In this document: one piece after another, positions 29,101 through 59,650 of the stretch
Layout: each line of letters opens with the position of its first letter
How positions within the stretch are numbered: position 1 is the stretch's first letter
NCBI RefSeq assembly: GCF_030036535.1
Contig: NZ_CP080387.1
Location: 1,178,001-1,242,000, forward strand
DNA length: 64,000 nucleotides
From: Agrobacterium cucumeris
GTDB taxonomy: Bacteria > Pseudomonadota > Alphaproteobacteria > Rhizobiales > Rhizobiaceae
Reading direction: 5' to 3'
The notes under the pieces: model-generated
The model's database searches: none
Told to the model about the DNA's origin: nothing
The model's input: the letters and a program-made list of their open reading frames with translations, nothing else
Position numbers and translations under genes: made by a program

Positions 29101-29138
29101 GGAGCCGGGCACCCGATACGGCACGGAAGCACTCGCAT

Positions 29139-30368
29139 CTAAACCAGCTTCGCGTCGTAAAGCCGCTCCATGAAACCGCGCGGCGCAACCGTCCTCGAAA
29201 TTTCCGCCAGTGGAAAGCCACTTCCGGCCAGCGGCAGGAAACCTTTTTCGAAGGCGTAATCGAGATAACGCATCATCAGCATCACATCGCATTCGTGGCA
29301 GTTGATTCCGGTTCCGGCGAGCGCCTGCCGGGCTTTGCCAGTGTCGTATCTGGCGCTGTCACGCACGTAATCGGCATTGCCCAGCATCGACAGAAGATCG
29401 GTGAAGACCGAGCTATAGGCTTTACCCTCTCGCAGCATCCGGCCCTGATTGAGCGCATCGAAATAATTGTCGCGTGACAATTCGCGCACCACATAGCCGC
29501 AATCGCGCACCTGTTCCACCAGCGTGTTCCAGTCGATCGGTTTTGGATTGACGAGATTGAAGGTGCGGCGGTTGTGAGCGCGCCAGTTCATGGCGAGATG
29601 CAGGCTCGCCCGTGCCACGTAATCGACCGGCGTGATATCGAAATCTTCATCCGATGCGAAAGTGAAGCCGGTTTCCACAATGGCGCGCACCGCTTCGTAA
29701 TAGATACCCTTCACCTTGGTCTGCGTCAGCGGATAACGACCGGTACGGCTGTCGCCCCAGATGTTGCCCGGGCGTACGATGATGAAATCGAGACCCTTTT
29801 GCCCGGCGGCGTGCATCAGCTTTTCCGACTCGAACTTGGAACGTTCATAATCCATGTCCGGAAAACGCTGGCCGACGTCGAGCGCATCCTCATAGAGCGT
29901 AAACTCCTCGTATAGCTTGTCGCCGATGACGCTGAAGCTCGATGTATGCATCAACGGGATTTTACCCTCGAGGCAAAACTCCACCATATTGGCCGAACCG
30001 CCAACGTTGACCGGCGCGATCTTGCTGTAGGATGCGATGAGATTGACATTGGCCGCGCAATGCAGCGCAAGATCGATCCTTTCGGCAAGGTCACGCCATG
30101 CATGCCTTTGCAGTCCGAGATGCGATCTGGAAACATCGCCGAGAACAGGCACGATGCGGGCGGCGGCCTCCCCCTTGAGGCTGCGTTCCTCGTCATAGCA
30201 GAAGAGGATGCTCTCGATCTTGCCCATCGCCTCCGCCATGTCGGCGGCACGCACCAGGCAATAGACCGTGGCTTTTGTTGTGGTGAGCAGTTCCTGCAGC
30301 AGGCGTCCGCCCATGACGCCGGTGGCGCCGGTCAGCAGAATATTGTCCACGCCGTTATCGTAAGTCAT
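29139..30368 (-). CDS. Free-standing thioester reductase (extended SDR type)
   Basis: 408 residues of the thioester-reductase group found at the ends of NRPS/PKS lines and in Lys2/carboxylic acid reductases. NAD(P)H binding is at LLTGATGVMGG (11-21), a Thr/Ser-containing catalytic block at HTSSFSV (141-147), and YxxxK at YERSK (Tyr174, Lys178). Such domains release an acyl chain from an acyl carrier protein by reduction to an aldehyde or alcohol. The ATG at 30368 has CGGAG upstream. It is the last gene of the biosynthetic operon, 13 bp after the SDR. I infer reductive off-loading of the product of the megasynthase. Confidence 0.88.
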   Translation of the reverse strand: MTYDNGVDNILLTGATGVMGGRLLQELLTTTKATVYCLVRAADMAEAMGKIESILFCYDEERSLKGEAAARIVPVLGDVSRSHLGLQRHAWRDLAERIDLALHCAANVNLIASYSKIAPVNVGGSANMVEFCLEGKIPLMHTSSFSVIGDKLYEEFTLYEDALDVGQRFPDMDYERSKFESEKLMHAAGQKGLDFIIVRPGNIWGDSRTGRYPLTQTKVKGIYYEAVRAIVETGFTFASDEDFDITPVDYVARASLHLAMNWRAHNRRTFNLVNPKPIDWNTLVEQVRDCGYVVRELSRDNYFDALNQGRMLREGKAYSSVFTDLLSMLGNADYVRDSARYDTGKARQALAGTGINCHECDVMLMMRYLDYAFEKGFLPLAGSGFPLAEISRTVAPRGFMERLYDAKLV

Positions 30369-30381
30369 TGCCGATCTCCGT

Positions 30382-31149
30382 TTAGAGCGTTCCGACCCGC
30401 ATGCCGCCATCCATCGGGATCACTGCGGCATTGAGGTAATTGGTTTTGCAGGTGGCCAGAAACGTCACCACTTCCGCCACATCATCAGGCGTGCCCCAGC
30501 GTCCGACCGGGACGATCGAGCGCACCAGACGTTCATCGGCCACCGTGTCGTTGATGCCTTCCTGTTCGAAGGGTTTGGACATGTTGGTCTTGCAGATGCC
30601 CGGCGCAATCGCCGTGACGCTGATGTTGAACTGTCCGAGTTCCTGCGCCCAGGATTCCGAGGCCTTGATGAGACCGGCCTTGGAGGCGGCATAAGCTGCC
30701 CCACCCCCTGCCCCCCAGATGCCGGCAATCGAGGCGATGTTGATGACCCGCCCGTAACGCTGGCGCACCATCGAGCGCGTAAAGACGCCCGTGCAGTTGA
30801 ACGCGCCCGCAAGGTTGACGTCGATGACCTTGCGGGACTGCGTCTGGCTGCGGTCGTTGACGCAATAGGTGCGATCGAGAATGCCGGCATTGTTGACGAG
30901 TACGGTCACCGGCAATCCCATTTTCTCGGCAATGGCACCCGATGCCTGCTCGACGCTGCCATGATCGGTGACATCCATGGCGAAAACGCCAAGGTGCCCG
31001 GGTTTTCCGATCTCCTGTTCAAGGCGTTGCAGCGCGGTAACGTCGATATCAACAGCCGCTACCGCATAACCAACATCGAGCAACGCAAGGGTAATGGCGG
31101 CGCCGAAGCCGCCTGAAGCACCGGTCACGACCGCGATTTGCTGGCTCAC
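30382..31149 (-). CDS. FabG-like short-chain dehydrogenase/reductase
   Basis: 255 residues, classical SDR: TGASGGFG cofactor loop (9-16), NNAG (86-89), Ser140, Tyr153 and Lys157 (YAASK). It is likely NAD(P)H-dependent. GTG start at 31149, overlapping the aminotransferase stop by four bases (GTGA). In this operon it could reduce a beta-keto or keto intermediate, or oxidise a hydroxyl to the ketone used by the aminotransferase. The direction cannot be read from sequence. Confidence 0.9.
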   Translation of the reverse strand: MSQQIAVVTGASGGFGAAITLALLDVGYAVAAVDIDVTALQRLEQEIGKPGHLGVFAMDVTDHGSVEQASGAIAEKMGLPVTVLVNNAGILDRTYCVNDRSQTQSRKVIDVNLAGAFNCTGVFTRSMVRQRYGRVINIASIAGIWGAGGGAAYAASKAGLIKASESWAQELGQFNISVTAIAPGICKTNMSKPFEQEGINDTVADERLVRSIVPVGRWGTPDDVAEVVTFLATCKTNYLNAAVIPMDGGMRVGTL

Positions 31150-32510
31150 GCGACTTCCTCGTCCTTGAAGGCGATTTCCATGACCTTGCGGGCATTGACG
31201 AGCGCATCGGAGATGCGTTCCTCGAAGAAATGCACGTCGTCCTGGTTCATCAAGAGGTTGGAATAGATGCGCGACAGCGGTGAGAACTGGATGCCGTGGC
31301 GCTTGCTCACCTCGCGGATGATGATGTCGCAGAATTTCACCTTGTGCGAATAGCCCTCGGAGCGATCCACCGGCTCTTCCTGCGAATGGTAGACCAGCGC
31401 CGTCGGCATGCCCTGAATGACGAGCGGCATTCCGGCAGCCTTCGCCGCCTTGGTGAAGACGCCCGAAATCTGTTCGGTGTAGCGACGCATCCGGTCATAG
31501 CAACCCGGATCCTTCTCGACGATATCGAAGGTCGCCTTGATGGCGGCGAGACCCAGCGGGTAACCGTTAAAAGTGCCCGCATGGATGACTTTGCCGCGCG
31601 TATAGAGATCCATGATGTCGCGCCGGCCGGCAATGGCGGAAATCGGCATCGATCCGCCGCCCAGCGCCTTGCCGAAGGTGGCGAGATGCGGCGTGACGCC
31701 GAGAATATCCTGCGCGCCGCCGAGCCCCAGACGCACGCCGGTGATGATCTCGTCGAAGATCAGCACGATATTGTGCTCTTCGCACAGTTCCTTGGTGCGC
31801 TCCAGATAGCCTTCGACCGGGAAGATGCCGCCGCCATTGATGCAGATCGGCTCCATCAGCACGGCCGCGATTTCGTTGCCGTAGCGGCGGATGGTGGCTT
31901 CCAGCGCGTTGATGTCGTTCCACGGCAGCATGAAGCTCTGGCTTTCCAGCACGCCCTCGGCGCGGCCGAGCGTATCGAGCATGTCACCCTGGTATTTTTC
32001 CGGCACGGGGAAATCGAGATTGTCCTTCTTGCGGAAGCCCATGACGTTGTCGGCATTGCCGTGATAATGGCCATGGAAGCGGATGAAGCGGTTCTTGCCG
32101 GTAAAGCCGCGCGCCAGCCGCAGCGCATTCTGCACCGCCTCGGTACCGCTCAGGCAAAACCGCACCATCTCGGCGCAGGGAATATGCTTGATCATCAGTT
32201 CCGCCACCTCGATCTCCAGATCGCAGGTATCGACGGAAGTGACCTTCTCCATGTAGCGGATCAGCGCTTCATTATAGGCCTCATTGTGATGGCCGACGAA
32301 AAGTGCGCCGAATTTGCAGAAGAGATCCAGATGTTCATTGCCGTCGAGATCCCATACCCGGGAATTGCGGCCCTTGTTGAAGGGCACCACGAAGGCGCGC
32401 TCGGCGTCGCCGAAATTATAGTGGGTGCCGCCCGGCATCAGTTCCCAGAGCCGTTTGTAGAAATCGCGCGAAATCTTCAGCGTCAGCTTGCTGTCCGTAT
32501 CTGTGATCAT
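31146..32510 (-). CDS. Class III PLP-dependent aminotransferase, glutamate-1-semialdehyde mutase-like
   Basis: 454 residues. The PLP Lys281 lies in ATFGKALGGG, the Asp that contacts the pyridine nitrogen is Asp253 in IFDEIITGVR, and the N-terminal LSGTEAVQNALRLAR is the phosphate-binding block. It is closest to the HemL/omega-aminotransferase branch but sits between a PfaD-like reductase (four-base ATGA overlap) and an SDR. This implies a biosynthetic transaminase acting on a carbonyl of a carrier-bound or released long chain. In zeamine- and fabclavine-type pathways an aminotransferase works with a PUFA-like synthase in the same way. Confidence 0.9.
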   Translation of the reverse strand: MITDTDSKLTLKISRDFYKRLWELMPGGTHYNFGDAERAFVVPFNKGRNSRVWDLDGNEHLDLFCKFGALFVGHHNEAYNEALIRYMEKVTSVDTCDLEIEVAELMIKHIPCAEMVRFCLSGTEAVQNALRLARGFTGKNRFIRFHGHYHGNADNVMGFRKKDNLDFPVPEKYQGDMLDTLGRAEGVLESQSFMLPWNDINALEATIRRYGNEIAAVLMEPICINGGGIFPVEGYLERTKELCEEHNIVLIFDEIITGVRLGLGGAQDILGVTPHLATFGKALGGGSMPISAIAGRRDIMDLYTRGKVIHAGTFNGYPLGLAAIKATFDIVEKDPGCYDRMRRYTEQISGVFTKAAKAAGMPLVIQGMPTALVYHSQEEPVDRSEGYSHKVKFCDIIIREVSKRHGIQFSPLSRIYSNLLMNQDDVHFFEERISDALVNARKVMEIAFKDEEVA

Positions 32511-34204
32511 GGCTGTGCGTTCTCCAGTTTGGCCGGCGATGCTGCCGGGGCGGTTCCGATTGACGGGGATGGATGCCGTGTCGGCGGCGTTGAAGGATCG
32601 AACGGATTTTCCGTCCAGGGCCGGTAGCGGTAGAGTGCGTCTGGCACCGGTAGGCCAGCGTTTTTCAGCGCTTCGAGCCTTGCAAGATAGGCCGCGTTGC
32701 GCATCAGAAGATCGGCGATAACGACGACGGAGCGGTGCTCGACCGGCTCGTAAGGGCTGCCACGCAACCATTCATTGATCGCACCCATGGCCGGGCCGCA
32801 CCAGATCTGGTAGTCGACCGCGCGGGATTTCTCTCCGGCAATCGCCCAGCGGGAGGATTGGCCGAGATACCACTGGAAGACCAGCGCCATGCGCTTTTTC
32901 GGATGCGTCTCCGCCGCCTCGATAATTCTGGGGTTGCCGCGCGCCTGAAAGAACTGCCGGGTCTCTTCCCAGACCTGCGGCAAGGAGCGCTGGAAAAATC
33001 CGCTTTCCAGGCTGGCAATTTCCGCTGCCGTAATGTCTTCGAGGCCGTCATATTGCTTGTAGAGATTGTAAAGCTTCTGGGCGCGCATGGCATACATGGT
33101 GCCGCCCTTCAGCACCTGCACCTTGGAGCCGATCTCGAACATGTCGGCGGATGGCGCCATCGCCATGTCGTCCATCTTCGCCCGCCCCAGCAGGGTCTTC
33201 ACCTGCGGCGACGTGCCGGCCTCGATGCAGGCCTGATTGATCGACCCCGTGCAGACATAGGCCGCGCCCATGGCGAAAGCCGCATAGACCGCCTGCGGAT
33301 TGCCGATGCCGCCAGCTGCGCCGATGCGGATGCGGAATGCCTCGCCCCTGAGATCGGCTATTTCGTCTTTTAGCGCCGCAACGGAAGGAAAGGCGCAATT
33401 CAGCACGCCATTATCGGTATGGCCACCGGAATTGGCCTCGACGGTGATGTCGTCAGCCATCGGCACCTCGCCCGCCATCGCCGCCTGTTCGGCGGAAATC
33501 AGACCGTCCTCGACCAGCCTTGAAAGGATTTTTTCCGGGGCCGGATTGATGAAATGCTGCGCCACTTCGCGGCGCGAAACCTTGGCGATGATGCGATGGC
33601 GCGGTTCGATAGCCCCCTGCCCGTTACGAACGAGCCCGGCCGCACGCCAATAAACGATGGCCGGCGAAAGGTTCATATAGGCAGAAGCCTCAACCACCTT
33701 CACGCCATGGCGGATGCACAGACGTACCACATCCATTTCCCATTCGGCATCGCCGGGATTATGCAGCAGATTGACGCCGCAAGGCCCGTGCGGCAGGGCG
33801 GCGCTTATGCGCGCCAGCGCCGAGGCGACACGCTCCCTGCCAAGCCCACCCGCACCGAAAAAACCCAGAAGCCGCTCCTTGCCAAGTGCGATCACCATGT
33901 CTTCGGAGTGAATGCCATTGGCCATCGCCCCGGCATAATAGGCCATGCGCACGCCGTAATCGCGCAGGAAACCCGGATCGCCGAGTTGGCTGGGTGTCAG
34001 CACGGGTACAATTCCCCGGCATTTTTCCACGTCGGTACAGGAAGCTTCGAGCGACCGCTGGCCACCAAATTCGAGTACATAGAGGCGTTTATCGAGATCA
34101 GCGAGAAGCCCACCCATTGCCTCGATGGTAGTGGGGTCAATACCCGCCTGTTTTTTCCATGTCCGGAAAAGCGGTGTGGAATTGATGTGCGGATTTTCAT
34201 TCAT
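32507..34204 (-). CDS. PfaD-like enoyl reductase of a PUFA-type synthase
   Basis: 565 residues, the usual length of PfaD. It is an FMN-binding TIM barrel of the nitronate monooxygenase group, with GFFGAGGLGRERV near the N-terminus and the flavin-phosphate region RIGAAGGIGNPQAVYAAFAMGAAYVCTGS. PfaD-like proteins supply the trans-acting enoyl-ACP reductase for PUFA synthases. ATG at 34204 overlaps the preceding stop (ATGA). A proline- and alanine-rich tail ends the protein. It acts with the two megasynthase subunits upstream. Confidence 0.93.
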   Translation of the reverse strand: MNENPHINSTPLFRTWKKQAGIDPTTIEAMGGLLADLDKRLYVLEFGGQRSLEASCTDVEKCRGIVPVLTPSQLGDPGFLRDYGVRMAYYAGAMANGIHSEDMVIALGKERLLGFFGAGGLGRERVASALARISAALPHGPCGVNLLHNPGDAEWEMDVVRLCIRHGVKVVEASAYMNLSPAIVYWRAAGLVRNGQGAIEPRHRIIAKVSRREVAQHFINPAPEKILSRLVEDGLISAEQAAMAGEVPMADDITVEANSGGHTDNGVLNCAFPSVAALKDEIADLRGEAFRIRIGAAGGIGNPQAVYAAFAMGAAYVCTGSINQACIEAGTSPQVKTLLGRAKMDDMAMAPSADMFEIGSKVQVLKGGTMYAMRAQKLYNLYKQYDGLEDITAAEIASLESGFFQRSLPQVWEETRQFFQARGNPRIIEAAETHPKKRMALVFQWYLGQSSRWAIAGEKSRAVDYQIWCGPAMGAINEWLRGSPYEPVEHRSVVVIADLLMRNAAYLARLEALKNAGLPVPDALYRYRPWTENPFDPSTPPTRHPSPSIGTAPAASPAKLENAQP

Positions 34205-37200
34205 GCTGCGGCCACCCATGATGATTGGTCGGTGCGGCGACGGGCAAAACCGGCGCCGAGATTGTCGCAAATGCCGATGACATTGCCTTTGTGGATGATC
34301 TCGGCGACGAAGACGAAGGATGCGGTCTCCAGCGTCACACCGTCCTCGCCATAAGCGAGGTCGATCGACTTGCAGGTCAGGCGATACCTCAGCGTATCGC
34401 GCTGTGGTTTCACCTCCCCCCGGAACTTGGCGCTGTATTGATGGTCGGTCAGCGTATGTCCGCTCAGGTGAGGCACCGAATAAAGCCCGAGATAGGCCAG
34501 GTAGAATTTCAAAAGCTGTTCGCAGCCTTCCACCAGCAATGTTCCCGGCACACAGGGGTCGTTCTTGAAATGCGCCTTGAAAGCCCAGTGATCTGGATCG
34601 ATGTCGCGCTCGCCGACCACCACGCCGAGGCCGAACGCGCCGCCTTTGGGGTCGACATCCACCACCCGGTCGAGCATTCTGGCCATCGGTGTCCACAGCT
34701 TTGGCGCGGCAGTTTCGGTTCTGTAGTCAGGACCAAAGCAGCTTGCCGGATCACCGTTGCCCAGCGCCTCGATATCATCTTCGGTGAAACGATCCTTCGT
34801 GCAGTTCAGCAGCGGTGTGAAGGGTTGCCGCACAGCGCCGTCATTTTTCAGGAAGGGAGCCGGATCGACACCCTTTGAGCGTTCCAGATCGCGCGGCAGG
34901 AAAAAGCCGGAATTCGCCTCCAGCCGGAAAACGGGCCGCTCATCGGCAAGGCACCAATATTCGTAGGAAACCAGAATATTACGGCCGACCTTGAGGAAGG
35001 ATTTGATATCCACCCGACCGCGCAGCAATTCGCCGGCGCGCGGCATTTCGCCATAAACGAAGGTGCGGCTGTCCACCGCCCGATAGCGCAATTCACCCCG
35101 GAACAATTGATCGCAGCCGATAAGCGTGAAGGCGACGATCATCGCATGTGAAGATTCCAGCGCCACGAAAGCCGGAACCTTGTCCTCGCACATGAACCAG
35201 GCATCGGCGGGCAGATCGAGTTCCCATTCGATGCGGCAGGGCTCCAGCGCACCGGCCTTGGCCGTCGTGCTGGTAATGCGCGAGGCGAACATATAGGGCG
35301 GCGATGGCATGCGCGTGCGCACCGCATAGGTATCGGCCAGCGCATAATCCGGCCCGAGCACGCGGCTGACCGCACCATCCGTCAGCTCGATCAACTGCGC
35401 TTCATCGAACAATGCGGCACGCGCTGGACTAACCGTCTCACCGGACATCATATGGCTCAAGCGACGATAGAACGCCTGCTCGGTCTGCATGAAGCGCAGG
35501 TTCGTCTGCGCGTTCCGGATCGCCTGCCGCTGCTGCCAGGTCAGCGGCAGGCGTGGGAAGCAGCCGGAGACCGGGCCATCGAAAGCTTCGGTCACCACTG
35601 CCGGGGACATCTGTGGCCGCATTGCAGGTGGAGATTTTTCAAACAGGGCAAAATTGGTGGGATCGAGAATGATCTCGGCCATGGTCCGCTCTCGCCCGGT
35701 AAAGACCCTTACGAGCAAAGGATCGGTCGCCGAAACACCCGCGGGAGCGCTGATCGCCTGAGGCCGCGCCACTGTCGGGCTTTCCAGCAATATATGCGTA
35801 TAGGCCCGATCGACCCCCATACCACTGATTGCCGCCAGTTGCGGCCCCGTCGCGCGCTGCCGTGACAGGCCGTAATGCAGGACCAGCGCGGTATGGATGA
35901 GGCTCAGCATGCCGGAAGCCGCGCCAAGATGGCCGTAGTGACGCTTTGAACTGTCCGCAGCAACGGTGGCGCCATAGACCCTGGCAAGCCCCTCCGCCTC
36001 GATGCGGGCTTCCACATCATCCGCCATGCTGTAGCGTTCGAGATAACTTATCTCTTGCGGCGCAACGCCTGTTTTTTGCAGGCAGGCCTCCGCCACATTG
36101 GCCACGGCATCCGCCGATGGCTGGAAGGTGGTGCCCGGCGCTGTGTCATGGCGGATTTCAAGGCCACGAAGGCGGGCATAGGCGCGTCCGGCCGGTCCGC
36201 CATCCGCTCTTTCGAGCATAATCACGCCGCAGCCTTCCCCCACGGGCTGGCTGCGATTTGGGTTGGCATAGATCATGTTTTCCAGCCCGCCATCACAGGC
36301 GCTGCTGGCCAGAATGACCGCATCGACCATATTTTCGGAAAGCATGTAGCGCGCCAGTTGCAGCCCCTTGAAAGCCGAGCTTTCATGCGCACACAGGGCA
36401 AAGGCCGGTCCGTCCAGCCGCAGATGCGCGGCCACACGGCTTGCGGCGATATTGCCCACCCCACCGGTAATGCCTTCGGCGAAGGGTTCGGGAAACAGAC
36501 TTTCCTTGACGATTCCTTGCAGACCGGCGAGCTGCTCTGCCGAAAGTTCTATGCCCGACCTCTCGAGGCTGTCGCGCAATTGCCAGCCGATCTCGTTGCG
36601 CGCCTGATAACGCAGGCAGCTATGATCGACATCCCGTGCGACGATGACCGCGATGTTACGCCTCTGCCCGTCCAGCGCATAACCCGCATCTAGAAATGCC
36701 CGCTCGGCCACCGGCAGCAGAAAGGCGTGGGCCAGAAGGTGATTGCCGATGACTTTCGGTGGCAGCTTGAAATGGCGGCAATCGAAATCGAAACTCTCGA
36801 TATAGCCGCCGGCCGGCGCTTCTCCGATCCCACCCAGCGCCAGAATATCGGCGCGCTTTTCGAGACCCAGCCAGCGCGTGCGTGGCAATGGCTGAAACCA
36901 TTGACGTCCGGTCGTTATCGTCTCGCGAAACGTCTCGACATTATCGGTTCCCGGCAGGGCCATGGCGATGCCGACAATATCAATTCCGGCCGGAGTGGTG
37001 GTAGGTGGGGTTGTAATCGTCGGCACCATCGCGCCCGCAACATGCTCGCGCAGCACCATGTGGCCGTTGACGCCACCGAAACCGAAGGCATTGATGCCGG
37101 CACGGCGCGGTTTTTCACCCCTCGCCCAGGGTTTGTTTTCGCGAACGATATGATCGCGCTTCACAAGCCCTTTGGGCGTCGTCACAAGGTTTTCTATTTG

Positions 37201-38364: not shown

Positions 38365-38496
38365 CGCGATCATCCTTCAAATGGCGCGCAGAGGGAGAGC
38401 GTCTCCGGCCTGAACCGGAACACGGAAACGCTTCTCACTGCCTGTCGTTACGAGTTTATGGAAAGCCTTCGCTTTTCCGGGCCTTGATCGGGGCGG

Positions 38497-45618: not shown

Positions 45619-45724
45619 CACAGGAATAGTCCTTCCCTGGGGACGAGAAGCAACGCTCCCGTCAGAGACAAGAAAAATTACGATGTAATTCAGAAATGGA
45701 GGCCGTATCGCATGCAAAAAATAT

Positions 45725-45754
45725 TATTAATACTCCGAGTTCGGAATATTAATA
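45725..45754. promoter_or_regulatory. 30-bp inverted repeat upstream of the megasynthase operon
   Basis: TATTAATACTCCGA-GT-TCGGAATATTAATA, two 14-bp arms with a single mismatch, 107-136 bp upstream of the PfaA-like start. It is AT-rich with a GC centre, unlike a terminator because no T tract follows, so an operator for a dimeric regulator is likely. Confidence 0.7.
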
Positions 45755-46030
45755 TGAGAGTTTTCTCAGCTCATTTCGCCTTTATGCGTCTGAGGCTGTA
45801 TAAAACATACATTCATTCATTTGAAAAGCATTAATATACTTTGCGTTGAAATTTTCATAAATCCGACATCTTCAGTTGAATTAATGAAAACTGACTGTCA
45901 AAAGCCCCGCTTTAAATCTCGGATTTTCTCGTAAATATCCGCGAACCCGGAGCCGCCTGTCAGCGACTGCCGGAAGCAAAGGAACAGAAAACCGCGGACC
46001 GGTTTTCCCTGGGCATTCCCTGCAGGCCTA
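45755..46030. other. AT-rich promoter region between tetR and the megasynthase operon
   Basis: No gene. AT-rich in its first 150 bp. A sequence AACTGACTGTC at about 45889-45899 is weakly like half of the TetR operator described for 46702-46730. The last 130 bp flank the TetR stop codon. The megasynthase promoter probably lies here. Confidence 0.5.
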
Positions 46031-46687
46031 TCAACCAGCCGTTGCCGGCGTCGGATTTTGCCCGATCTCAGCCATTTCACCGGCAGATTGTCTTGCAGCC
46101 AGAAAGCGGCCGATAATCAGATGCATCATGTCGGCTTCTTCGAGTGGCCGGAAATCGGGATCGACCGCCAGGCGTGAGAAAACGCCGTCTATCAGCGCCG
46201 CGATCCATGTCGCAGCACGCTCGGCGTCGAGATTGGCGTCGATCTGGCCACGCTCCATTCCCTTGCGCAAAAGATCGGTGATCCCTGCCCGGATTTCCTG
46301 ATCGGCTGCCCTGACAAGCGCATGAATAGCCGGGTTGCGGATCGCTTCTGAGGCGATCTCCAGCACCAGCCGGGCATAGGTGGGGTCGGTGGCAAGTTCC
46401 AGCGATGCATCGACAAAGCCCAGAACCGCACCGAACTGATCGTCCGCCGCGCCAAGTTCGGCAAAATAGGCGGCGGTTTCCCGCCGCTCTTCGGCAACGA
46501 TCGTTTCGATGATCGCTTCCTTGCTGGCGAAATAATGGAAAAGATTGCCGGAGCTCATGCCGACCGCCGCGCATATCTGCGCTGTGGTGGTCTGGTGAAA
46601 CCCGTTTTGTGCAAAGCAGCTTATGGCAGCTTCAAGTATCTGCTGCCGCTTGGCTTCATGCTTTGCCGGATCGAGCTTGCGGGCCAT
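46031..46687 (-). CDS. TetR-family transcriptional repressor
   Basis: About 218 residues: an N-terminal helix-turn-helix (RQQILEAAISCFAQNGFHQTTTAQICAAVGMSSGNLFHYFASKEAI) and an AcrR-type ligand domain. The ATG at 46687 has GGGAGCA just upstream. It lies between the exporter operon and the megasynthase operon and is oriented the same way. A palindrome 15 bp before its start suggests autorepression, and a related site stands before the MFS gene. It is the likely local regulator; the ligand may be the product. Confidence 0.93.
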   Translation of the reverse strand: MARKLDPAKHEAKRQQILEAAISCFAQNGFHQTTTAQICAAVGMSSGNLFHYFASKEAIIETIVAEERRETAAYFAELGAADDQFGAVLGFVDASLELATDPTYARLVLEIASEAIRNPAIHALVRAADQEIRAGITDLLRKGMERGQIDANLDAERAATWIAALIDGVFSRLAVDPDFRPLEEADMMHLIIGRFLAARQSAGEMAEIGQNPTPATAG

Positions 46688-46701
46688 GATTGCTCCCATA
46701 A

Positions 46702-46730
46702 ATTAACTGAGCGCTTAGTCCATTAATTAT
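46702..46730. promoter_or_regulatory. TetR-type operator before the tetR gene
   Basis: ACTGAGCGCTTAGT at 46706-46719, an imperfect palindrome, flanked by ATTA and CATTAATTAT. The site is 15 bp upstream of the ATG, well placed for autorepression. A 29-bp window matches 21 positions of a site at 54218-54246. Confidence 0.7.
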
Positions 46731-46782
46731 ATCGAGGCGGACTGTCAACCCGCCCCGACTGGTCCTGCGCGCCGATTACACC

Positions 46783-47562
46783 TTAAACGGTCAATTCAAA
46801 CTGCTCGCATTCACGCAGGAACGGCAATTTCGCCCTTGTATCGTCGAGCATCTGGCGCGAAAGCTGCTGTTGGTGCACGACAGCATTCACATTGGCGTGA
46901 AAACATATGTCTCCCAGGGGATCGATGACCATGCTGTCGCCGTCATAAGCAAGGTCGTTGCCGTCAATGCCGACGCGGTTCACCCCTATGACATAGGCCT
47001 GGTTCTCAATGGCGCGTGCCGGCAGCAGGCTTTTCCAATGCGCAGCCCGGCGGGCGGGCCAGCTCGCAATATAAAGCGCTACGTCATATTGACCGCGATT
47101 GCGCGACCAGACCGGAAATCTGAGATCAAAGCAGATGAAGGGCGCGATGTTCCAGCCCTTCAAATGCACCACCTGTTGCGCCTGCCCCGGCGTATAGTGC
47201 TCATGCTCCCCGGCATAGGTGAAGAGATGCCGTTTGTCATAATGAATGAGCGCACCGTCCGGGCGGGCCCAGAGCAGCCGATTGAAATAACGGCCGTCCT
47301 CTCTAATCGCCACACTCCCGACGATGTCGGCATCGTGCTGACGGGCAGTCTCCCGCATCCATTCCACCGCTGGCCCGTCCATGGGTTCCGCGACAGCCTG
47401 TGGATTCATGCTGAAGCCGGTTGTGAACATTTCCGGTAAAACGATCAGGTCCGTCGCGCCGATCTCATCCAGATGACGGTCGAATTGCTGCAGGTTCTGC
47501 CCGGCATTTTCCCAGGCCAGATCGGCTTGCACCAGCGTTATGCGAAGATCCCTGTCACTCAT
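46783..47562 (-). CDS. Carbon-nitrogen hydrolase, omega-amidase (YafV)-like
   Basis: 259 residues of the nitrilase superfamily with its catalytic triad: Glu44 in LPEMFTTGF, Lys110 in HYDKRHLF and Cys144 in FICFDLRFPVW. The FDLRFPVWSRN context is that of YafV/Nit2-type omega-amidases, which hydrolyse 2-oxoglutaramate, the product of glutamine transamination. It lies 24 bp after the PPTase gene in the exporter operon. It may remove such a by-product from the cluster's aminotransferase, or act on an amide of the final product; both are inference. Confidence 0.88.
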   Translation of the reverse strand: MSDRDLRITLVQADLAWENAGQNLQQFDRHLDEIGATDLIVLPEMFTTGFSMNPQAVAEPMDGPAVEWMRETARQHDADIVGSVAIREDGRYFNRLLWARPDGALIHYDKRHLFTYAGEHEHYTPGQAQQVVHLKGWNIAPFICFDLRFPVWSRNRGQYDVALYIASWPARRAAHWKSLLPARAIENQAYVIGVNRVGIDGNDLAYDGDSMVIDPLGDICFHANVNAVVHQQQLSRQMLDDTRAKLPFLRECEQFELTV

Positions 47563-47586
47563 GAATATCTCCTTGAAAACATGGTT

Positions 47587-48354
47587 TTAACGACAAATCA
47601 GCCAGGTGCGGACGAAACTGCCTGTCACTGAAAAACGAATATGGAAACGGCTGCCGGCCGGAAGCGACCGATGCAGCGGGCGTGTCAGCTCCAGCCGCAA
47701 TTCGTCACGGTCGGGCCTCTCGAAAAGACGTGCGGCATGGAAATCGAAGTGACGTCCAACGATCGGATAAAGTGCTTTGAACAGCGTCTCCTTGGCGGAA
47801 AACACCAGAAAAGGCAGCACGCGACCGTCGCATTGTTCCCGATCGGCAATCAGCTCTCGCTCCAGCGTGTCGAGGGCGCGTTTCAGGATGATCTCGGTAA
47901 CCGCGCCAGGTTCTATTTTCTCGATGTCAACGCCAACCATCGCCTCACCGTCCAGCGTCGCCATGCTGACGCATATGCCGTGGGAATGGCTGATGGAACC
48001 GGATATGCCCGGCGGCCACACTGGCTCGCGCTTGTTGCCGATGCCGATCGGAACGGAAGGCCTGCCCAGAAGCTTCAGCGCCGCCTGCCCCAGAAAACGC
48101 CCTGCGAGAAACTCGGCCTGCCGTTTGGGAACAGCCTCGGCAAGCAGCGTTGGCATCACCACCTCCAGCCTGTCGAACAGCGCCGGCCGATAACAGGGCA
48201 GATGATATTGCGCTTCGAGCGCGACGACATTTTCCGAGCCGGTATCGAGAAAAACCGGGCCGGACAGGAAACCGTCCGAACGGCAAACAGCGGCGGCAAT
48301 ATCGTCTCGCATGACGGGTGCGTTGGTGCCTGAAATCTGGTGGCCGGGCATCAT
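47587..48354 (-). CDS. 4'-phosphopantetheinyl transferase, EntD-like
   Basis: 255 residues. Mg-binding Asp143 and Glu145 in VGVDIEKIEP, and Glu189 and Lys193 in FSAKETLFKALYP, are the EntD-type PPTase motifs; RFLGQAALKLLG and ISHSHG are also present. It would transfer phosphopantetheine from CoA to the two ACP serines of the PfaA-like protein. Its ATG overlaps the stop of the RND gene (ATGATG). Having a dedicated PPTase in the cluster fits a self-contained pathway. Confidence 0.92.
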   Translation of the reverse strand: MMPGHQISGTNAPVMRDDIAAAVCRSDGFLSGPVFLDTGSENVVALEAQYHLPCYRPALFDRLEVVMPTLLAEAVPKRQAEFLAGRFLGQAALKLLGRPSVPIGIGNKREPVWPPGISGSISHSHGICVSMATLDGEAMVGVDIEKIEPGAVTEIILKRALDTLERELIADREQCDGRVLPFLVFSAKETLFKALYPIVGRHFDFHAARLFERPDRDELRLELTRPLHRSLPAGSRFHIRFSVTGSFVRTWLICR

Positions 48355-51300
48355 CCCTGCCCCCGCAACGTTTCAGCCCCGCCGGTCATCAGCTGTTCCG
48401 CCCCTGCCCGGTCAGCGGCCGTGACGGAAGTGAGGCGCTGCAATCTGCAGCCCAGCCAGCCGCGCAGGTCGTCCATATAGGTGAAGACGACAGGCACGAA
48501 AACGAGGCTCAACAGGGTGGAGGTGATAAGGCCACCAATGACGGCAATCGCCATCGGCGCGCGAAAACCGGCATCCGCCCCCACGCCCAGCGCCGCCGGC
48601 ATCATGCCGGCAACCATGGCAAGCGTGGTCATGATGATCGGCCGGGCGCGTTCAACCCCGGATTCAACCAGCGCTCGATGGCGGTCAAGGCCGTTGTTTC
48701 GCTTCTCGATGGCGAATTCCACCAGCAGGATGGAGTTCTTGGTAACGATGCCCATCAGCATTAACAGGCCAATGACGGCCGGCAGATCGAGGGCGCCGCC
48801 GTAGAGCATGAGGCCGACGATCGCTCCCCCCACCGAAAGCGGCAGCGCCACGAGAATGGTGATCGGCTGGAGAAAGTCCTTGAACAGAACGACCAGTACG
48901 GCGAGCACCATAAGCAGGCCGAACAGCATGGCCGCGCTAAAACTCTGGAACATCTCGCCAATATATTCCGCATCGCCATATTGCACCTCCCGCACCCCGG
49001 CTGGAAGCGACGCCATGGCAGGCAAGGCGTGAATGCGCTCCAGCGCCACGCCCAGCGGAATGCCGGCAAGATCGGCACTGATTGTCACGCGGCGCTGACG
49101 GTCAAAGCGGTTGAGTTGTCCCGGCCCTTCCGAAACCGAAAGATCGGCGATGGACATCAGCGGCACGCTGCCATTTGCTCCCGACACCCTGAGCATGCCG
49201 AGCGTATCGAGATTGCTCTGCGCATCCCTGTCGATCATCACGCGGATCGGCACCTGCCGGTCGCCAATGTTGAACTTGGCGGAGTTGGCGTCGGTATCAC
49301 CCGTGGTTGCAATACGCATGACGGCGGCGATGGACTGCGTGGAAATGCCAAGCCGGGCCGCTTCATCGAAACGTGGTCTTATCTGCAATTCGGCGCGTGG
49401 CAGGGGTTCGATGGTCTGCACATTGGCGATGCCGGCAAGGCCGCGCATTCCTGTTTCGACGGCAAGCGCCGCGGCCGCGAGCTTCTCCGGCGCATCGCCG
49501 ACGAGAATGATGGAAATGTCGCGCGCCGCATTTTCGTTCTGGAATGCAAAGCGAATATTCGGCGTGCGGGCTATGACGCTTGCGGCAGCCAGTTCAAACT
49601 GGCGCTGGGAAAGCGTCCGCTCCGACGAAGGCACCAGATTGACTAGCAGCGAAGCGCGGGCAACATCCGGCCCGTCATCAGTACGGCCGACAGAGGCGAA
49701 GATGCTTTTGACCTCCGGCATTTGCCGGAGCGTCGCCGTTACCGACTGCACGGCATCATCCGTATCGCGCAATGTCGATTCCGGCGGCAGTTCGATCTGG
49801 ATTCGCGACAGGCTGCGGTCGTCGCTCGGCAGGAAACCCGATGGCAGCAGTGGAACGAGAAGGAAGGAACCCACCAGCACCAGAACGCCAATGCCACAGG
49901 TTTTCAACCGGTGGCGCAGCGCAAGCTCGAGAAGCGCGACATAAGCCCGGCCAAGGCGTGATTTCGGCGCTTCATGCTCCTCCACTTTCACCGCCTTCGG
50001 CGCCAGAAGATAGGCAGCCATCAGCGGGGTGACGAGACGCGCAACCAGCATGCTGGCAAGGACTGCAACCGAAACCGTAAGCCCGAACTGCTTGAAATAT
50101 TGCCCGATCACCCCACCGATGAAGCTGACCGGCAGAAACACTGCAACAATGGTGGCGGTAATTGCCAGAACCGCAAAACCGATCTGGTCCGCCGCATCGA
50201 TCGACGCCTGAAACGGCCGCTTGCCCATATGCAGGTGGCGGTCGATATTTTCCACCTCAACGATGGCGTCATCAACGAGAATGCCGATCACCAGCGTCAG
50301 CGCCAGAAGGGTGATGCTGTTGAGGGTGAAATCAAGCCACAGCATCACCGCAAATGTAGGCAGTATCGATAACGGCATGGCAACGGCGGCGATCAGCGTC
50401 GCACGCCAGTCACGCAGGAAGAAAAACACCACCACGACCGTCAGCACCGCGCCCTCGATCAGGGTTTCCATGGCGACTTCGTAGCTCGCCCTCGTATAAT
50501 CGACCGTCGAAAGCACCCGATCAATCTCAACGCCCGGATAAGTGTCGGTCAGCCGTGCGATGGTGGCGTTCACGCCATTTTCGACGGCCGTATCGCTCGA
50601 ACCCTTGGCCCGGAACACCGAAAAGCCGACCACCGGGTCACCATCAAGGCGCGACAACTCGCGCGGTTCGGCCGATCCATCCGTTACCTTGCCAAGCGTG
50701 GCGAGCGTCGTCCATTGGCCGTTAGGAAGGCTGATCGGCCGTTCCGCAAGCTCGCCGGCGGTAATCGCTCCGCCAACCGCGCGGATCGACTGTTCCTTTT
50801 CATTGAGCCGGCTTCTGCCGCCGGGCACATTGGTGTTGAACGCCTGAACCTGATTGTTGATATCCTCGGCGGTAATGCCGAAGGCAATGAGCTGGTCGGG
50901 GTCAAGCTGCACCGTGATTTCGCGGCTGACGCCGCCAAGCCTTTGCACGCGCTGCACGCCCTTGGTTGTCAGGAGTTCCCGCGCAATCGTCTCGTCAACG
51001 AACCATGAGAGATCGACAGGCGACATCTGCGGTGCACGAACGGCGAAATAGAGGATCGCCCCACCCTCGACATCCAGGCTGGCAATGATCGGCTCCTCGA
51101 TATCACGCGGCATTTCGGTGCGGATTTGCAAGACCGCCTGGCGCACATCATTGGTGGCGCGGGCGGTGTCGATACCGAGCTGGAACTCCACCGTCGTGGT
51201 CGACAGGCCGTCACCGATGGTCGACTGGATATGCCGGATGCCGGCAAGGCCGGAGATCGCGCCTTCGACACGCCGGGTCACCTGTGTTTCCAGTTCGGCC

Positions 51301-51470
51301 GGGGCAGCACCGGCCTGGGCGATGGACACAGTAACGATCGGAAAATCGACGCGGGGATTGGCGTTGACCGGCAATTTTAAAAAGGACTGGATGCCGACGA
51401 TCGTCAACAGCAGGAAGAGAACGAGAGTAGGGATCGGACGGCGGATGGCCCAGGACGAAATATTGGTCAT
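48351..51470 (-). CDS. RND-family efflux pump, inner-membrane permease
   Basis: 1039 residues of the HAE1 RND family, 12 transmembrane helices with two large periplasmic loops. N-terminal RRPIPTLVLFLLLTIVG is typical, and the proton-relay acids are seen in TM4 (ILVDDAIVEVENIDRH). With the adaptor encoded upstream it forms an exporter; the outer-membrane channel is not encoded here. The ATG at 51470 overlaps the adaptor stop (TGATG). Confidence 0.94.
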   Translation of the reverse strand: MTNISSWAIRRPIPTLVLFLLLTIVGIQSFLKLPVNANPRVDFPIVTVSIAQAGAAPAELETQVTRRVEGAISGLAGIRHIQSTIGDGLSTTTVEFQLGIDTARATNDVRQAVLQIRTEMPRDIEEPIIASLDVEGGAILYFAVRAPQMSPVDLSWFVDETIARELLTTKGVQRVQRLGGVSREITVQLDPDQLIAFGITAEDINNQVQAFNTNVPGGRSRLNEKEQSIRAVGGAITAGELAERPISLPNGQWTTLATLGKVTDGSAEPRELSRLDGDPVVGFSVFRAKGSSDTAVENGVNATIARLTDTYPGVEIDRVLSTVDYTRASYEVAMETLIEGAVLTVVVVFFFLRDWRATLIAAVAMPLSILPTFAVMLWLDFTLNSITLLALTLVIGILVDDAIVEVENIDRHLHMGKRPFQASIDAADQIGFAVLAITATIVAVFLPVSFIGGVIGQYFKQFGLTVSVAVLASMLVARLVTPLMAAYLLAPKAVKVEEHEAPKSRLGRAYVALLELALRHRLKTCGIGVLVLVGSFLLVPLLPSGFLPSDDRSLSRIQIELPPESTLRDTDDAVQSVTATLRQMPEVKSIFASVGRTDDGPDVARASLLVNLVPSSERTLSQRQFELAAASVIARTPNIRFAFQNENAARDISIILVGDAPEKLAAAALAVETGMRGLAGIANVQTIEPLPRAELQIRPRFDEAARLGISTQSIAAVMRIATTGDTDANSAKFNIGDRQVPIRVMIDRDAQSNLDTLGMLRVSGANGSVPLMSIADLSVSEGPGQLNRFDRQRRVTISADLAGIPLGVALERIHALPAMASLPAGVREVQYGDAEYIGEMFQSFSAAMLFGLLMVLAVLVVLFKDFLQPITILVALPLSVGGAIVGLMLYGGALDLPAVIGLLMLMGIVTKNSILLVEFAIEKRNNGLDRHRALVESGVERARPIIMTTLAMVAGMMPAALGVGADAGFRAPMAIAVIGGLITSTLLSLVFVPVVFTYMDDLRGWLGCRLQRLTSVTAADRAGAEQLMTGGAETLRGQG

Positions 51471-52780
51471 CAACGACCCTCCCCTTTCTGCGCCATCTCA
51501 TCCACGCCGACGATCTGGTCGCCGTCACGCAGAAAAGCACTGGCGCTTTTAACGACGCGTTCGGCCGGTTCCAGCCCCTCAAGGATTTCGATGATGCCGT
51601 TCTGCGCCTGCCCCAGGCGAACGGTGCGTCGCGCCACCCTGTCATTGTGATCGACCACGACGAGCTGTGCGGTGCCTTCACGGCGCAGCCGCAGGGCCGC
51701 CTCCGGCACGGCGACACGGAACCGGCGCTCACCAAGATCGACCTTGCCACGGGCAAACGCACCGGTGCGCAGATCTGCGAACGGAGGAACGGCGATCCGC
51801 ACGATACCGAGGCGGCTCTGGGTGTTGACCGCCGGCTCGACGACACGGATGGTGCCCTGAATGGGCCGGCTGACGCCGTTGACGGTGATCGTCACGGACT
51901 GGCCGGTCTGCAGCGACGGCAGCACCCGTTCCGGCGCTTCGGCCAGAAACTCCAACTCTCCATCCTGCAACAGACGAAACAACGGTTCGGTGCTATCGGG
52001 CATCGCGCCGATGCGGGCGTGGCGCTGGGTGATGACGCCGGGTTTGGGCGACAGGATTTCAGTGCGTTCCAGTTCAAGACGGTTCTGGGTAAGCTGCGCC
52101 TGCGTGCCGGCAAGTTCCGCCCGCGCGCCTTCGATTTTCGCCGCCGCCATGGCCGCCGCGGCGCGACGCTGGCCAAGCTGCTCCTTGCTGACGCTGGAGC
52201 CGGAAAGCCCTTCGGCGCGACGCAGATTTTCGCTTGCCTCGATCTCGGCGGCCTCGGCTTCCGCAAGCGCAGCACGCGAACGGGCAACATTGGCCTCGGT
52301 CTGCTGGACCTGTGCGGCGAGCGTCTTGCTCTCCAGCCGCGCCAGCAGCTGCCCGGCGGCGACGGCATCGCCGACATCAACAGAAACCTCGACAATACGT
52401 TGACCGGTCACGGCCGTTCCAATCGAGATATCATTGCGGGCGGCCAGAAGACCGGCAACATCCTGGCTCGCGTTAAAGTCATAGGACGCTGCCGCAACGA
52501 CGGACACATGCGGCAACACTTTGGCGGCCTGCGCATTCTGCGCCGCTGCCGGTGTTTCTTCGCCAGCCAGCATCAGCCACACAGTGACACCCAAAAAAGC
52601 GGCAGCTGCTGCCCCCCACCAGAACAGTCTGGTGGCGGAACCCCTTCTGCGTTTTTCGGCAGATGTGGGCTCGGTATATCCGGTGGAGTTTTCAGCGATA
52701 GAGTTCGGTTCGGTCATGATGGAAGCGGTCCGGATGGGAAATTGAAGGAGATGGGAAGATTGCGACGGCTCTCCGATCAT
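51470..52780 (-). CDS. RND efflux periplasmic adaptor (membrane fusion protein)
   Basis: About 436 residues. One N-terminal membrane anchor (RLFWWGAAAAAFLGVTVWLML) precedes a lipoyl/barrel-sandwich half (VSVDVGDAVAAGQLLARLES), a long Ala/Glu-rich coiled hairpin (EANVARSRAALAEAEAAEIEASENL) and a beta-barrel domain. This is the HlyD/AcrA architecture. I choose the ATG at 52780 because it overlaps the MFS stop (ATGA); the ATG at 52717 is an alternative. It couples the RND pump to an outer-membrane channel. Confidence 0.9.
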   Translation of the reverse strand: MIGEPSQSSHLLQFPIRTASIMTEPNSIAENSTGYTEPTSAEKRRRGSATRLFWWGAAAAAFLGVTVWLMLAGEETPAAAQNAQAAKVLPHVSVVAAASYDFNASQDVAGLLAARNDISIGTAVTGQRIVEVSVDVGDAVAAGQLLARLESKTLAAQVQQTEANVARSRAALAEAEAAEIEASENLRRAEGLSGSSVSKEQLGQRRAAAAMAAAKIEGARAELAGTQAQLTQNRLELERTEILSPKPGVITQRHARIGAMPDSTEPLFRLLQDGELEFLAEAPERVLPSLQTGQSVTITVNGVSRPIQGTIRVVEPAVNTQSRLGIVRIAVPPFADLRTGAFARGKVDLGERRFRVAVPEAALRLRREGTAQLVVVDHNDRVARRTVRLGQAQNGIIEILEGLEPAERVVKSASAFLRDGDQIVGVDEMAQKGEGR

Positions 52781-54078
52781 GGCGGCGATTTGCCGAGCAT
52801 CCGCGCCGCCCGGCTGAGGAGCACCCAGAGCACCAGCAAACAGAGGGTTGCCGTCAGCCCCCACAGGAACAATGCGGAACCGACAGCCTCCATGCCGAAA
52901 CCGGCGATCAGCACGGCGAGCGGCGTCGCCATCATGGCAATTGCCGCGGTCGTCCCAAGCACGCTGCCCCGGATCGAGGCCGGTGCGCGTTTCAGGAACA
53001 TCGCATTGGCGAGCGGGCCAAGCGCCCCGGTCGACAGGCCGATCAAGGCAGCCGCGAAAAATAGATATGGACCGGTCTCAATGAAGGCTATCAGGCCGAT
53101 CGCAAGCGTGGCGCCGGATATGCCCGCCAGAAGCACAAAGCGTCCGTTCCAGCCATGGCCCCATATGGCAAAGGTGACAGCCGAGAAGGCCGCCCCTGCC
53201 CCGGAAACCGCGAGGAACAGGCCGAGGTCGAGAACATCCGCCCCGCTTGCCTTGAACAGGACCGGTAGAACAACAGCGTTGAGCGCCCCGAAAACCGCCA
53301 GCATTACCATGGCGACAACAAGCATGAGACGCAGCAGCGGTTCGGTCAGCAGGAAGCGCAGGCCCGCAAGCGCCGCACCGCCTTTGTCCGGATCGGTGAT
53401 CCTGCGGCGATGACGCGGCAGGCAGATCGCGCCGATGACGGCGGCAAGCAGCGAGCAACCGGCCGTGATCAGCAGGGCATATTCAATGTCGAAAGCGGCG
53501 ATTGCGATGCCGGCGACCGGCGGGCCGAAGATCAGCGCAGTGTTTTCCAGCAATTCATCAATCGACGTCATCCGCTCGATCGGCATGCGTGCAACACGGG
53601 CGAGTTCCGGCACCCTTGCATCATGGGCGATCATGCCCGGCCCATCGAGAAGCGCGCCGATCACGATCAGGCCGATCAGCAGGCCGATATCCAGCTGTCC
53701 GGTCATCATCAGCAACGGAATGGCTGCAACGCTCAATGCGCTGGCAAGATCGGCAGTAACGGCAACGACACGCGAACCGAAACGGTCAACGATCGGCCCG
53801 CCGAAAAAAGCGCCGATCACCAGCGGCATCATGCCGGCCGCCGCCGAAATCCCGGTCCATGCGGCATTGCCTGTCAGGGAAAGCACGATCCATGGCAGCA
53901 CGACGCCGGCCACCGCATTGCCGAAAAGCGACAGGGCGCCGGCAAGGATGATGCCATAGAGCGGAATGCGGCTGTGCGGAAGACCAAGTCCGCGAGGCCC
54001 CGCCTCGGAGCCGGCGTCGAGATCAGCATATGCCGCCGCAAGGCGCATCGTCTCGGCAGGGCTGCTGTCTGAAGGCAT
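52777..54078 (-). CDS. MFS transporter, drug-efflux type
   Basis: About 433 residues with twelve predicted helices and the central loop. N-terminal features SLFGNAVAGVVLPWIVLSLTGNAAWTGI and GGPIVDRFGSR are characteristic of MFS exporters of the EntS/multidrug kind. The ATG at 54078 has GGAGATCG upstream and is used instead of the ATG at 54090. First gene of the exporter operon and target of the putative TetR operator at 54218-54246. A role in export or self-resistance is inferred. Confidence 0.9.
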   Translation of the reverse strand: MPSDSSPAETMRLAAAYADLDAGSEAGPRGLGLPHSRIPLYGIILAGALSLFGNAVAGVVLPWIVLSLTGNAAWTGISAAAGMMPLVIGAFFGGPIVDRFGSRVVAVTADLASALSVAAIPLLMMTGQLDIGLLIGLIVIGALLDGPGMIAHDARVPELARVARMPIERMTSIDELLENTALIFGPPVAGIAIAAFDIEYALLITAGCSLLAAVIGAICLPRHRRRITDPDKGGAALAGLRFLLTEPLLRLMLVVAMVMLAVFGALNAVVLPVLFKASGADVLDLGLFLAVSGAGAAFSAVTFAIWGHGWNGRFVLLAGISGATLAIGLIAFIETGPYLFFAAALIGLSTGALGPLANAMFLKRAPASIRGSVLGTTAAIAMMATPLAVLIAGFGMEAVGSALFLWGLTATLCLLVLWVLLSRAARMLGKSPP

Positions 54079-54217
54079 TACGATCTCCAAATTTCACCGA
54101 ACCAGTGCTGCGGGCGATGATGACGGCGGCAAATGACTTGAGCGCACGGCTGCGCCAAGGCGCGCGACAGGTCACGTCAGCAACCCCGCTCGCCCACTCA
54201 CAAGCATCAAATGTTTC

Positions 54218-54246
54218 ATTAATTAAGTAGTCAGTCTATTTATTAT
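54218..54246. promoter_or_regulatory. Putative TetR operator before the exporter operon
   Basis: ATTAATTAAGTAGTCAGTCT followed by ATTTATTAT, 140 bp upstream of the MFS start. Twenty-one of 29 positions match the site before tetR, including the AGTC core and both AT-rich flanks. The palindrome is weaker (ATTAA/TCAGT). Confidence 0.55.
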
Positions 54247-59555: not shown

Positions 59556-59650
59556 GACGGTCTATCGACTTTACAGGCTGTTTTTTGGATAGACCGCTCT
59601 TAAACCATTGTTCGCAGCAGCGAAACACTTACGTTCGCCGAACACTAGCT

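Follow-up and report, generated by a model that had tools for sequence, protein, structure and literature searches.

A probable stand-alone polyamine assembly line of the zeamine/fabclavine type on a genomic island of Agrobacterium cucumeris

In the zeamine cluster (PMC3547906), Zmn10-14 correspond to PfaA, PfaC, a PfaD-aminotransferase (PfaD-AMT) protein, a 3-oxoacyl-ACP reductase and a thioester reductase (TR), and Zmn15 is a carbon-nitrogen hydrolase. The genes fclCDEFG are essential for the fabclavine polyamine of Xenorhabdus szentirmaii, and fclCDEFGH of X. bovienii, whose cluster is peptide-free, gave a polyamine and a deoxy-polyamine in Escherichia coli (PMC9113149). Here a related cluster is described: twelve minus-strand genes, all with open frames, at positions 29139-54090 of a 64,000-nucleotide stretch of Agrobacterium cucumeris DNA (G000:C1:1178001-1242000, within a 5.7-Mb genome), the whole of which is called the window below. 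Counterparts of all of zmn10-15 and fclCDEFGH exist in it, and the probability that this island is a stand-alone zeamine/fabclavine-type polyamine assembly line is put at roughly 0.8. An earlier note on this DNA had claimed a complete gene set on one strand; every gene it named is present, with an open frame and clear domain matches, and of its limits, 29139-54078, the gene positions hold and the upper end does not, as the MFS frame starts at 54090. The reading order is MFS exporter, RND adaptor, RND pump, phosphopantetheinyl transferase (PPTase), nitrilase, TetR regulator, PfaA, PfaC, PfaD, AMT, SDR and TR; the features are listed below by rising coordinate (PKS, polyketide synthase).

29139..30410, minus strand: free thioester reductase, FclG/Zmn14-type (TIGR01746, 233 bits against a cut-off of 213)
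30382..31149, minus strand: SDR 3-oxoacyl-ACP reductase, FclF/Zmn13-type (PF00106; TIGR01830 below cut-off)
31146..32510, minus strand: class III pyridoxal-phosphate aminotransferase, a separate gene (PF00202, found on a longer frame)
32507..34204, minus strand: PfaD enoyl reductase (TIGR02814, 608 bits against 449)
34201..38373, minus strand: PfaC-like KS-CLF-FabA dehydratase (domain matches, KS-CLF tree)
38497..45717 as listed frame, minus strand: PfaA-like KS-AT-ACP-ACP-KR-PKS-type DH (TIGR02813, 1636 bits against 1010)
45725..45754, between the TetR gene and PfaA: near-perfect inverted repeat, TATTAATACTCCGA/TCGGAATATTAATA (14 + 14 nt, 2-nt spacer)
46031..46699, minus strand: TetR-family regulator (PF00440)
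46783..47562, minus strand: YafV-type nitrilase-fold amidase, FclH/Zmn15 counterpart (NF007757/PRK10438, 305.5 bits against 249)
47587..48354, minus strand: EntD-like PPTase (PF17837, PF01648; NF007604, EntD, below cut-off)
48351..51473, minus strand: RND efflux permease (PF00873, 743 bits; NCBIfam models below their cut-offs)
51470..52864, minus strand: RND periplasmic adaptor, HlyD/RND_mfp (TIGR01730 over cut-off)
52777..54090, minus strand: MFS exporter (PF07690; TIGR00900 below cut-off)
29101..54467, no strand: island absent from the congener G034 (alignment break)

PfaA probably starts nearer 45618 than at the first codon of its frame, and the RND adaptor probably starts downstream of its frame's first codon; the inverted repeat is a candidate TetR operator.

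The placement of the synthase was derived from its KS-CLF part. A contig scan with a 31-row PfaC alignment returned at least 592 stretches and 585 relatives, and the best 80 of the 585 led to 76 loci; 77 KS-CLF rows (the 76 loci and the window) were extracted, 28 of them (from L054-L089, mostly Nostoc-type) were dropped, and 49 entered the tree. The window, L014 and A. salinitolerans form one group (100/100), which then joins Aquabacterium, Janthinobacterium and Chromobacterium (88/73, weak). All of these belong to the proteobacterial zeamine/fabclavine clade (100/100); under midpoint rooting the neighbour of this clade is a trio of cyanobacterial loci (100/100). The Psychromonas and Colwellia rows, which we take to be eicosapentaenoic/docosahexaenoic acid (EPA/DHA) synthases, and the large Nostoc groups, presumably heterocyst-glycolipid synthases, lie across a 100/100 branch from this clade. 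The AMT tree (27 rows) agrees, with an Agrobacterium-beta group at 80/92. Thus the zeamine/fabclavine logic proposed in the earlier note is borne out by both trees, and the synthase does not fall with the presumed EPA/DHA or heterocyst-glycolipid groups that had been named as its possible alternative home.

Gene content was scored in 27 of the 76 loci, 23 proteobacterial ones of zeamine type and four from cyanobacteria; L031 was excluded for its short length, and the rest as EPA-like or Nostoc-type by organism and score. TR is present in 18 of the 23 proteobacterial loci, and all 18 keep the order PfaA-PfaC-PfaD-AMT-SDR-TR. Compared with the 16 non-Agrobacterium loci among these, the window's TR is 48-61% (L025 partial) and its SDR 58-67% identical. 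Five Photorhabdus loci (L019-L022, L029) keep PfaA, PfaC and PfaD-AMT, while TR, nitrilase and a close SDR were not found within about 7 kb downstream of them, nor, for one of the five, in a further 20 kb; this is in line with the reduced P. temperata cluster described in PMC7214866. The window's PfaC is 95% identical to a protein named 'beta-ketoacyl synthase [Agrobacterium genomosp. 3]' and 98% identical to the match on L014, a contig titled Rhizobium rhizogenes GBBC3284.

The domain matches agree with the architecture given in the earlier note, KS-AT-ACP-ACP-KR-DH for PfaA and KS-CLF-DH for PfaC. The best stretch of TIGR02813 on PfaA covers residues 46-1530, and two ACP motifs lie at residues ~1298 and ~1428, 130 residues apart. 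Among 25 sources two such motifs were counted in four, all Agrobacterium, and one in 20, counts that refer to the frames found in each source; in L037, where PfaA is cut by the contig end, the count is 0. The duplication is not a very recent one, because ACP1 and ACP2 within a genome share 85-90% of their DNA over 360 bases, as against 84-86% for the same ACP between the window and L015 (A. salinitolerans). PfaC has KS, CLF and one FabA-type DH, and in its second KS (the CLF) Glu replaces the active-site Cys (AHESS), the change that was also reported in Zmn11 (PMC3547906). Catalytic motifs of KS, AT, KR, both DH, TR, SDR, AMT and nitrilase, read by eye, look intact. Could the locus instead encode a synthase of polyunsaturated fatty acid (PUFA) or glycolipid type, making EPA/DHA or a heterocyst glycolipid, with the aminotransferase as a bystander? 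PfaA, PfaC and PfaD are indeed homologous to PUFA synthase proteins, but the KS-CLF placement, the two ACPs with one FabA-type DH, the lack of a separate PfaB-like gene among the twelve, and the adjoining AMT, SDR and TR of related loci make this scarcely credible.

The window's AMT is 69-83% identical to the 21 fused proteobacterial PfaD-AMT proteins, and it reaches only 273.8 bits with the HemL model TIGR00713 (cut-off 527.3), so that HemL orthology, a possibility left by the earlier note, was rejected. Its matches to the MycA chains 6kfm, 6kfr and 6kfu score 134-136 bits, and those to HemL chains up to 221; the zeamine AMT was likened to that of MycA, for which glutamine is the nitrogen source (PMC3547906). 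PfaD and AMT form one frame in 21 of 27 loci (the window included in the 27); the two are separate genes in the window, in L014 and L015, and in three loci of cyanobacteria. In the window the PfaD gene proper (32507-34204) and the AMT gene proper (31146-32510) share an ATGA overlap, with the AMT ATG over the PfaD stop, and the split sits at a domain border, as in L016 the PfaD match runs to residue 577 and the AMT match starts at 582. A sequencing frameshift was rejected as its cause, because the PfaD frame is also short in G019 (651 aa), G032 (622 aa) and the L014 genome (694 aa), against ~1000-1250 aa in fused loci, and A. salinitolerans has its own spacing between the two genes. The position of the Agrobacterium AMTs, nested among fused ones (97/98 branch of the AMT tree), makes secondary fission the best reading of the split there, and the cyanobacterial split may be the older state; given this nesting, the PfaD-AMT fusion is taken as usual, not defining, for this type of synthase. 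Of the two separate genes that were earlier held to set the locus apart, the aminotransferase remains a difference, unusual among Proteobacteria, and the reductase does not, being free also as zmn14 and fclG.

A separate AMT protein need not sit on the synthase, and an aldehyde aminotransferase acting after reductive release is known for myxochelin B (PMC3547906). It might therefore act here on the released aldehyde only, with a single amination and a long-chain mono- or diamine lipid as the product. This is considered unlikely in view of the high identity of AMT to zeamine/fabclavine-type domains and its nesting among fused proteins, a position that the KS-CLF part shares. The polyamine reading is preferred. 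AMT is also the most conserved protein of the nine genes compared, with 100% identity in the same-species genome, 99.3% in G019 and 98.7% in G032. At DNA level (31146-32510), 24% of its 4-fold sites differ from A. salinitolerans, as against 36-45% in other genes and 30% in SDR, which may reflect either tighter constraint or a local recombination event.

The cluster is a clean island of ~25.4 kb with an empty site in the congener G034. The flanking LysR and ClC genes are 404 bp apart in G034 and 25,638 bp apart in the window; the alignment of the two stops at 29100 and resumes at 54468, with 129 other bp between in G034. The empty site and the alignment breaks at the island borders indicate that the genes form one unit, beyond chance. 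G015 shows a second empty site, where most of the LysR gene is missing. Full-length PfaC matches (86-100%) occur in 3 of 101 genomes, all three of them among the 38 of the genus and one being the window's own; in every other genome the best match covers only a part and is of KS type. Adding the genome of L014, which we infer from matching nitrilase coordinates to be the same-species genome G121, brings the carriers to 4 of 39 genus genomes. In G019 and G032 it also lies beside ClC, and over nine genes its proteins are 92-99% (G019) and 79-99% (G032) identical. At 4-fold sites these nine genes differ by 15-22% in G019 (flank 14-17%) and by 24-45% in G032 (flank 29-35%), a divergence close to the prediction of common descent at this place; loss elsewhere and exchange by recombination are both possible. 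The patchy occurrence might also suggest that the cluster is silent or decaying and yields no product, which we regard as very improbable, given that the frames are open in the window and, over the parts covered, in L014 and L015, and that conservation of the proteins while 4-fold sites diverge suggests purifying selection. Outside the island, ~1.1 kb at 59626-60713 with a P63C-domain gene (59651-60622) is unmatched at the corresponding position of G034 and G015.

How might the preferred polyamine line work? PfaA and PfaC would extend a malonyl-derived chain iteratively; in most rounds the beta-keto group would be fully reduced by KR, the FabA-type DH and PfaD, and in selected rounds AMT would put an amine in its place. 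The chain would be released as an aldehyde by the thioester reductase and converted by AMT to a terminal amine. The PKS-type DH would remove the last hydroxyl to give a deoxy-polyamine, perhaps alongside the hydroxy form, and no peptide would be added, as the cluster comes without a nonribosomal peptide synthetase (NRPS). In X. bovienii it is the PKS-type DH of FclC that yields the deoxy form (PMC9113149), and zeamines retain a hydroxyl (PMC13291983). A deoxy product is expected because PfaA keeps, as in X. bovienii, a PKS-type DH with an intact HxxxGxxxxP/DxxxQ motif. In an alignment of 23 rows, three of them Xenorhabdus rows without such a DH, X. bovienii T228 and all four Agrobacterium rows (the window, G019, L014 and L015 among them) have an unaltered HxxxGxxxxP, Gly is changed to Asp in Serratia plymuthica NBRC 102599, Dickeya oryzae ZYY5 and an Aquabacterium bin and to Ala in Janthinobacterium, and two Photorhabdus rows have Tyr for His. 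The predicted product is a long-chain, exported polyamine, probably deoxy, and it may have an antimicrobial role.

For the nitrilase a distinct function is proposed. Of 39 genus genomes, 4 have a member of its YafV-type family above the PRK10438 cut-off, namely the cluster carriers (G000, G121, G019 and G032), and the gene is found in 17 of the 23 proteobacterial loci; of the six misses, five are the Photorhabdus loci and the sixth is a contig that breaks off within TR. In genomes of Chromobacterium (G102), Aquabacterium (G108) and Pseudoalteromonas (G110) the sole over-cut-off copy lies on the cluster's contig. Deletion of fclH in X. szentirmaii lowered the polyamine by more than 70% (PMC9113149). 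Transamination with glutamine leaves alpha-ketoglutaramate, and its hydrolysis by an omega-amidase makes the step irreversible, a 'ketoglutaramate ratchet' that was published for methionine salvage (PMC6302742); YafV is listed as an omega-amidase in PMC3223725. On the grounds of MycA-like glutamine use, this ratchet and the YafV listing, it is proposed that the window's nitrilase, FclH and Zmn15 are omega-amidases, which would hydrolyse the alpha-ketoglutaramate left by AMT with glutamine as donor and so pull the repeated transaminations forward. No paper giving FclH or Zmn15 this role was found, and among the matches listed zeamine/fabclavine and ketoglutaramate terms never occurred together.

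The island includes the RND adaptor, RND pump and MFS gene; G019 retains all three, as does G032 apart from small unaligned gaps. The pumps would export the cationic product and protect the producer. In Dickeya the RND pump DesABC confers zeamine resistance (PMC6538784).

As to the peptide, no condensation domain was found on contig C1, which carries the window, and all 13 of the genome are on C2, so that the absence of an NRPS at the cluster, as seen in the earlier note, holds for the whole contig. Condensation domains are also absent from two Chromobacterium cluster contigs (G102:C44, 338 kb; G120:C12, 251 kb), and from the P. aurantia (46 kb) and Aquabacterium bin (20 kb) contigs, which are short and make a weak test. 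Aquabacterium A7-Y (G108:C17) has one condensation match, 43 kb from the cluster, and an NRPS lies near the cluster in Bowmanella (upstream, so that a downstream-only check is misleading there) and Janthinobacterium fluminis (downstream). With condensation matches near some clusters and none near others, stand-alone and NRPS-adjoined forms both occur in the group. On C2 of G000 there are a separate NRPS/PKS region with condensation and KS matches (G000:C2:86033-124779) and a second group of condensation matches (C2:1749682-1758581); a KS pair of frame lengths similar to the C2 pair occurs also in G006, G012, G025 and G027.

Several points weigh against the stand-alone polyamine reading or parts of it. 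The large region at C2 86-125 kb leaves room for a split-locus, fabclavine-like hybrid, in which the polyamine would be joined in trans to an NRPS/PKS product; the L014 genome, inferred to be of the same species, also has 13 condensation matches, the same as G000. Yet the carriers G019 and G032 have 5 each, and G006, G012, G025 and G027 have the C2-like KS pair without the polyamine cluster, so that region and cluster do not travel together and such a hybrid is judged quite unlikely. The KS-CLF tree flags an unusual letter make-up in the window and other rows, and two rows of its clade, L028 and L032, are on long branches. An unaltered HxxxGxxxxP is seen in X. lircayensis, three Chromobacterium, Aquabacterium A7-Y, Bowmanella and Pseudoalteromonas as well; a DH domain persists in S. 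plymuthica and D. oryzae, and the link of motif to product has three reference points only, with sequences from producer species or close kin, not all from the published strains; it is therefore offered as a prediction. The nitrilase family also exists outside such clusters, as it is over cut-off in 2 of 14 control genomes irrespective of a cluster. No YafV-type nitrilase over cut-off was found in any of three cyanobacterial genomes with AMT, SDR and TR (0/3) or in one Photorhabdus genome with AMT (0/1), which means that the omega-amidase step is not obligatory; strict coupling of AMT to this nitrilase was rejected. Finally, the RND proteins found in flanking DNA of four other clusters share only 24-29% identity with the window's, so that orthology of the RND pump with them is not supported and the likeness of the exporters to those of Dickeya is one of role, not of close descent.

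A published description of the Agrobacterium cluster was not found by title or abstract opening among the matches listed. Agrobacterium tumefaciens and the cyanobacterium Fischerella thermalis are named in passing among organisms with PKS-type DH homologues (PMC9113149), and PMC3098273 describes a different type from Agrobacterium vitis, with split pfaA and fused pfaBC. A recent survey of zeamine-like clusters looked for NRPS, PKS and PUFA-type genes no more than 20 kb apart, so that peptide-free clusters were outside it by design (PMC13291983). It is possible, as a tentative wider view, that Agrobacterium, Chromobacterium, Aquabacterium and heterocystous cyanobacteria share a largely unreported class of peptide-free long-chain polyamines from stand-alone zeamine-type synthases, in which the free line is older and the NRPS half was added later in zeamine and fabclavine producers; in the proteobacterial forms a dedicated omega-amidase would drive the repeated, glutamine-dependent transamination of a single growing chain. 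An intact cluster with its own regulator and exporters in a tractable genus makes three points testable: free polyamines as a product in their own right, the function of the conserved nitrilase, and the intact second dehydratase as a predictor of the deoxy form. A membrane-active polyamine, if true, would bear on the competition of these plant-associated bacteria with their neighbours.

How does the locus compare with the known systems? The cyanobacterial loci of Calothrix, Komarekiella and Nostoc MG11 (L034, L035 and L040) resemble the window in a separate AMT next to PfaD, SDR, TR and KS-CLF-DH, and the stretches read have no NRPS motif; they differ in a PfaA in three frames, no over-cut-off YafV-type nitrilase and other neighbours. 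In these three genomes (L034, L035, L040, L118-L123) PfaD, AMT, one or two SDR, TR, PfaA and KS-CLF-DH stand in a row, with AMT 56-58% identical to the window's, and in the Pfam-tested L034 and L040 glycosyltransferase genes follow downstream, plus ABC transporter and amine oxidase or amidase genes. They appear to be a cyanobacterial zeamine-like polyamine cluster. The nearest tree relatives among the best 80 matches are the Chromobacterium/Aquabacterium loci L016, L030 and L026, which possess the whole polyamine set, nitrilase included, and show no NRPS motif over the ~20 kb that follow; unlike the window, they have a fused PfaD-AMT, one ACP motif and the nitrilase downstream of TR.

With the zmn/zms zeamine cluster of S. 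plymuthica and Dickeya (PMC3547906, PMC6538784) the window shares counterparts of all of zmn10-15, not of zmn16-19. An RND pump adjoins the zeamine cluster in Dickeya (PMC6538784), as RND genes do in the island; an RND protein ~35 kb downstream of the D. oryzae PfaD gene is 27% identical to the window's. The DH motif is intact in the window, and the rows of S. plymuthica and D. oryzae have Asp in place of its Gly. X. bovienii fclCDEFGH is also close, with the same enzymes, the same core order, a PKS-type DH in PfaA/FclC and no working NRPS: in X. bovienii the NRPS half seems to have been lost (a cryptic fclJ homologue, PMC7214866), and the window has no condensation domain on its contig. The window differs from X. 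bovienii in PfaD and AMT as two genes instead of one protein, two ACPs in PfaA, the nitrilase upstream of PfaA, and a TetR gene with RND and MFS exporters inside the island. Given the X. bovienii case, and since PMC9113149 mentions both A. tumefaciens and F. thermalis in passing, the cluster is not categorically new: what the earlier note saw as an NRPS-free system is so, though this state is not distinctive, and its reading largely stands for a system nearer to a known kind than it supposed. The cluster represents the zeamine/fabclavine polyamine system in Agrobacterium, as a well-formed variant without the peptide part.

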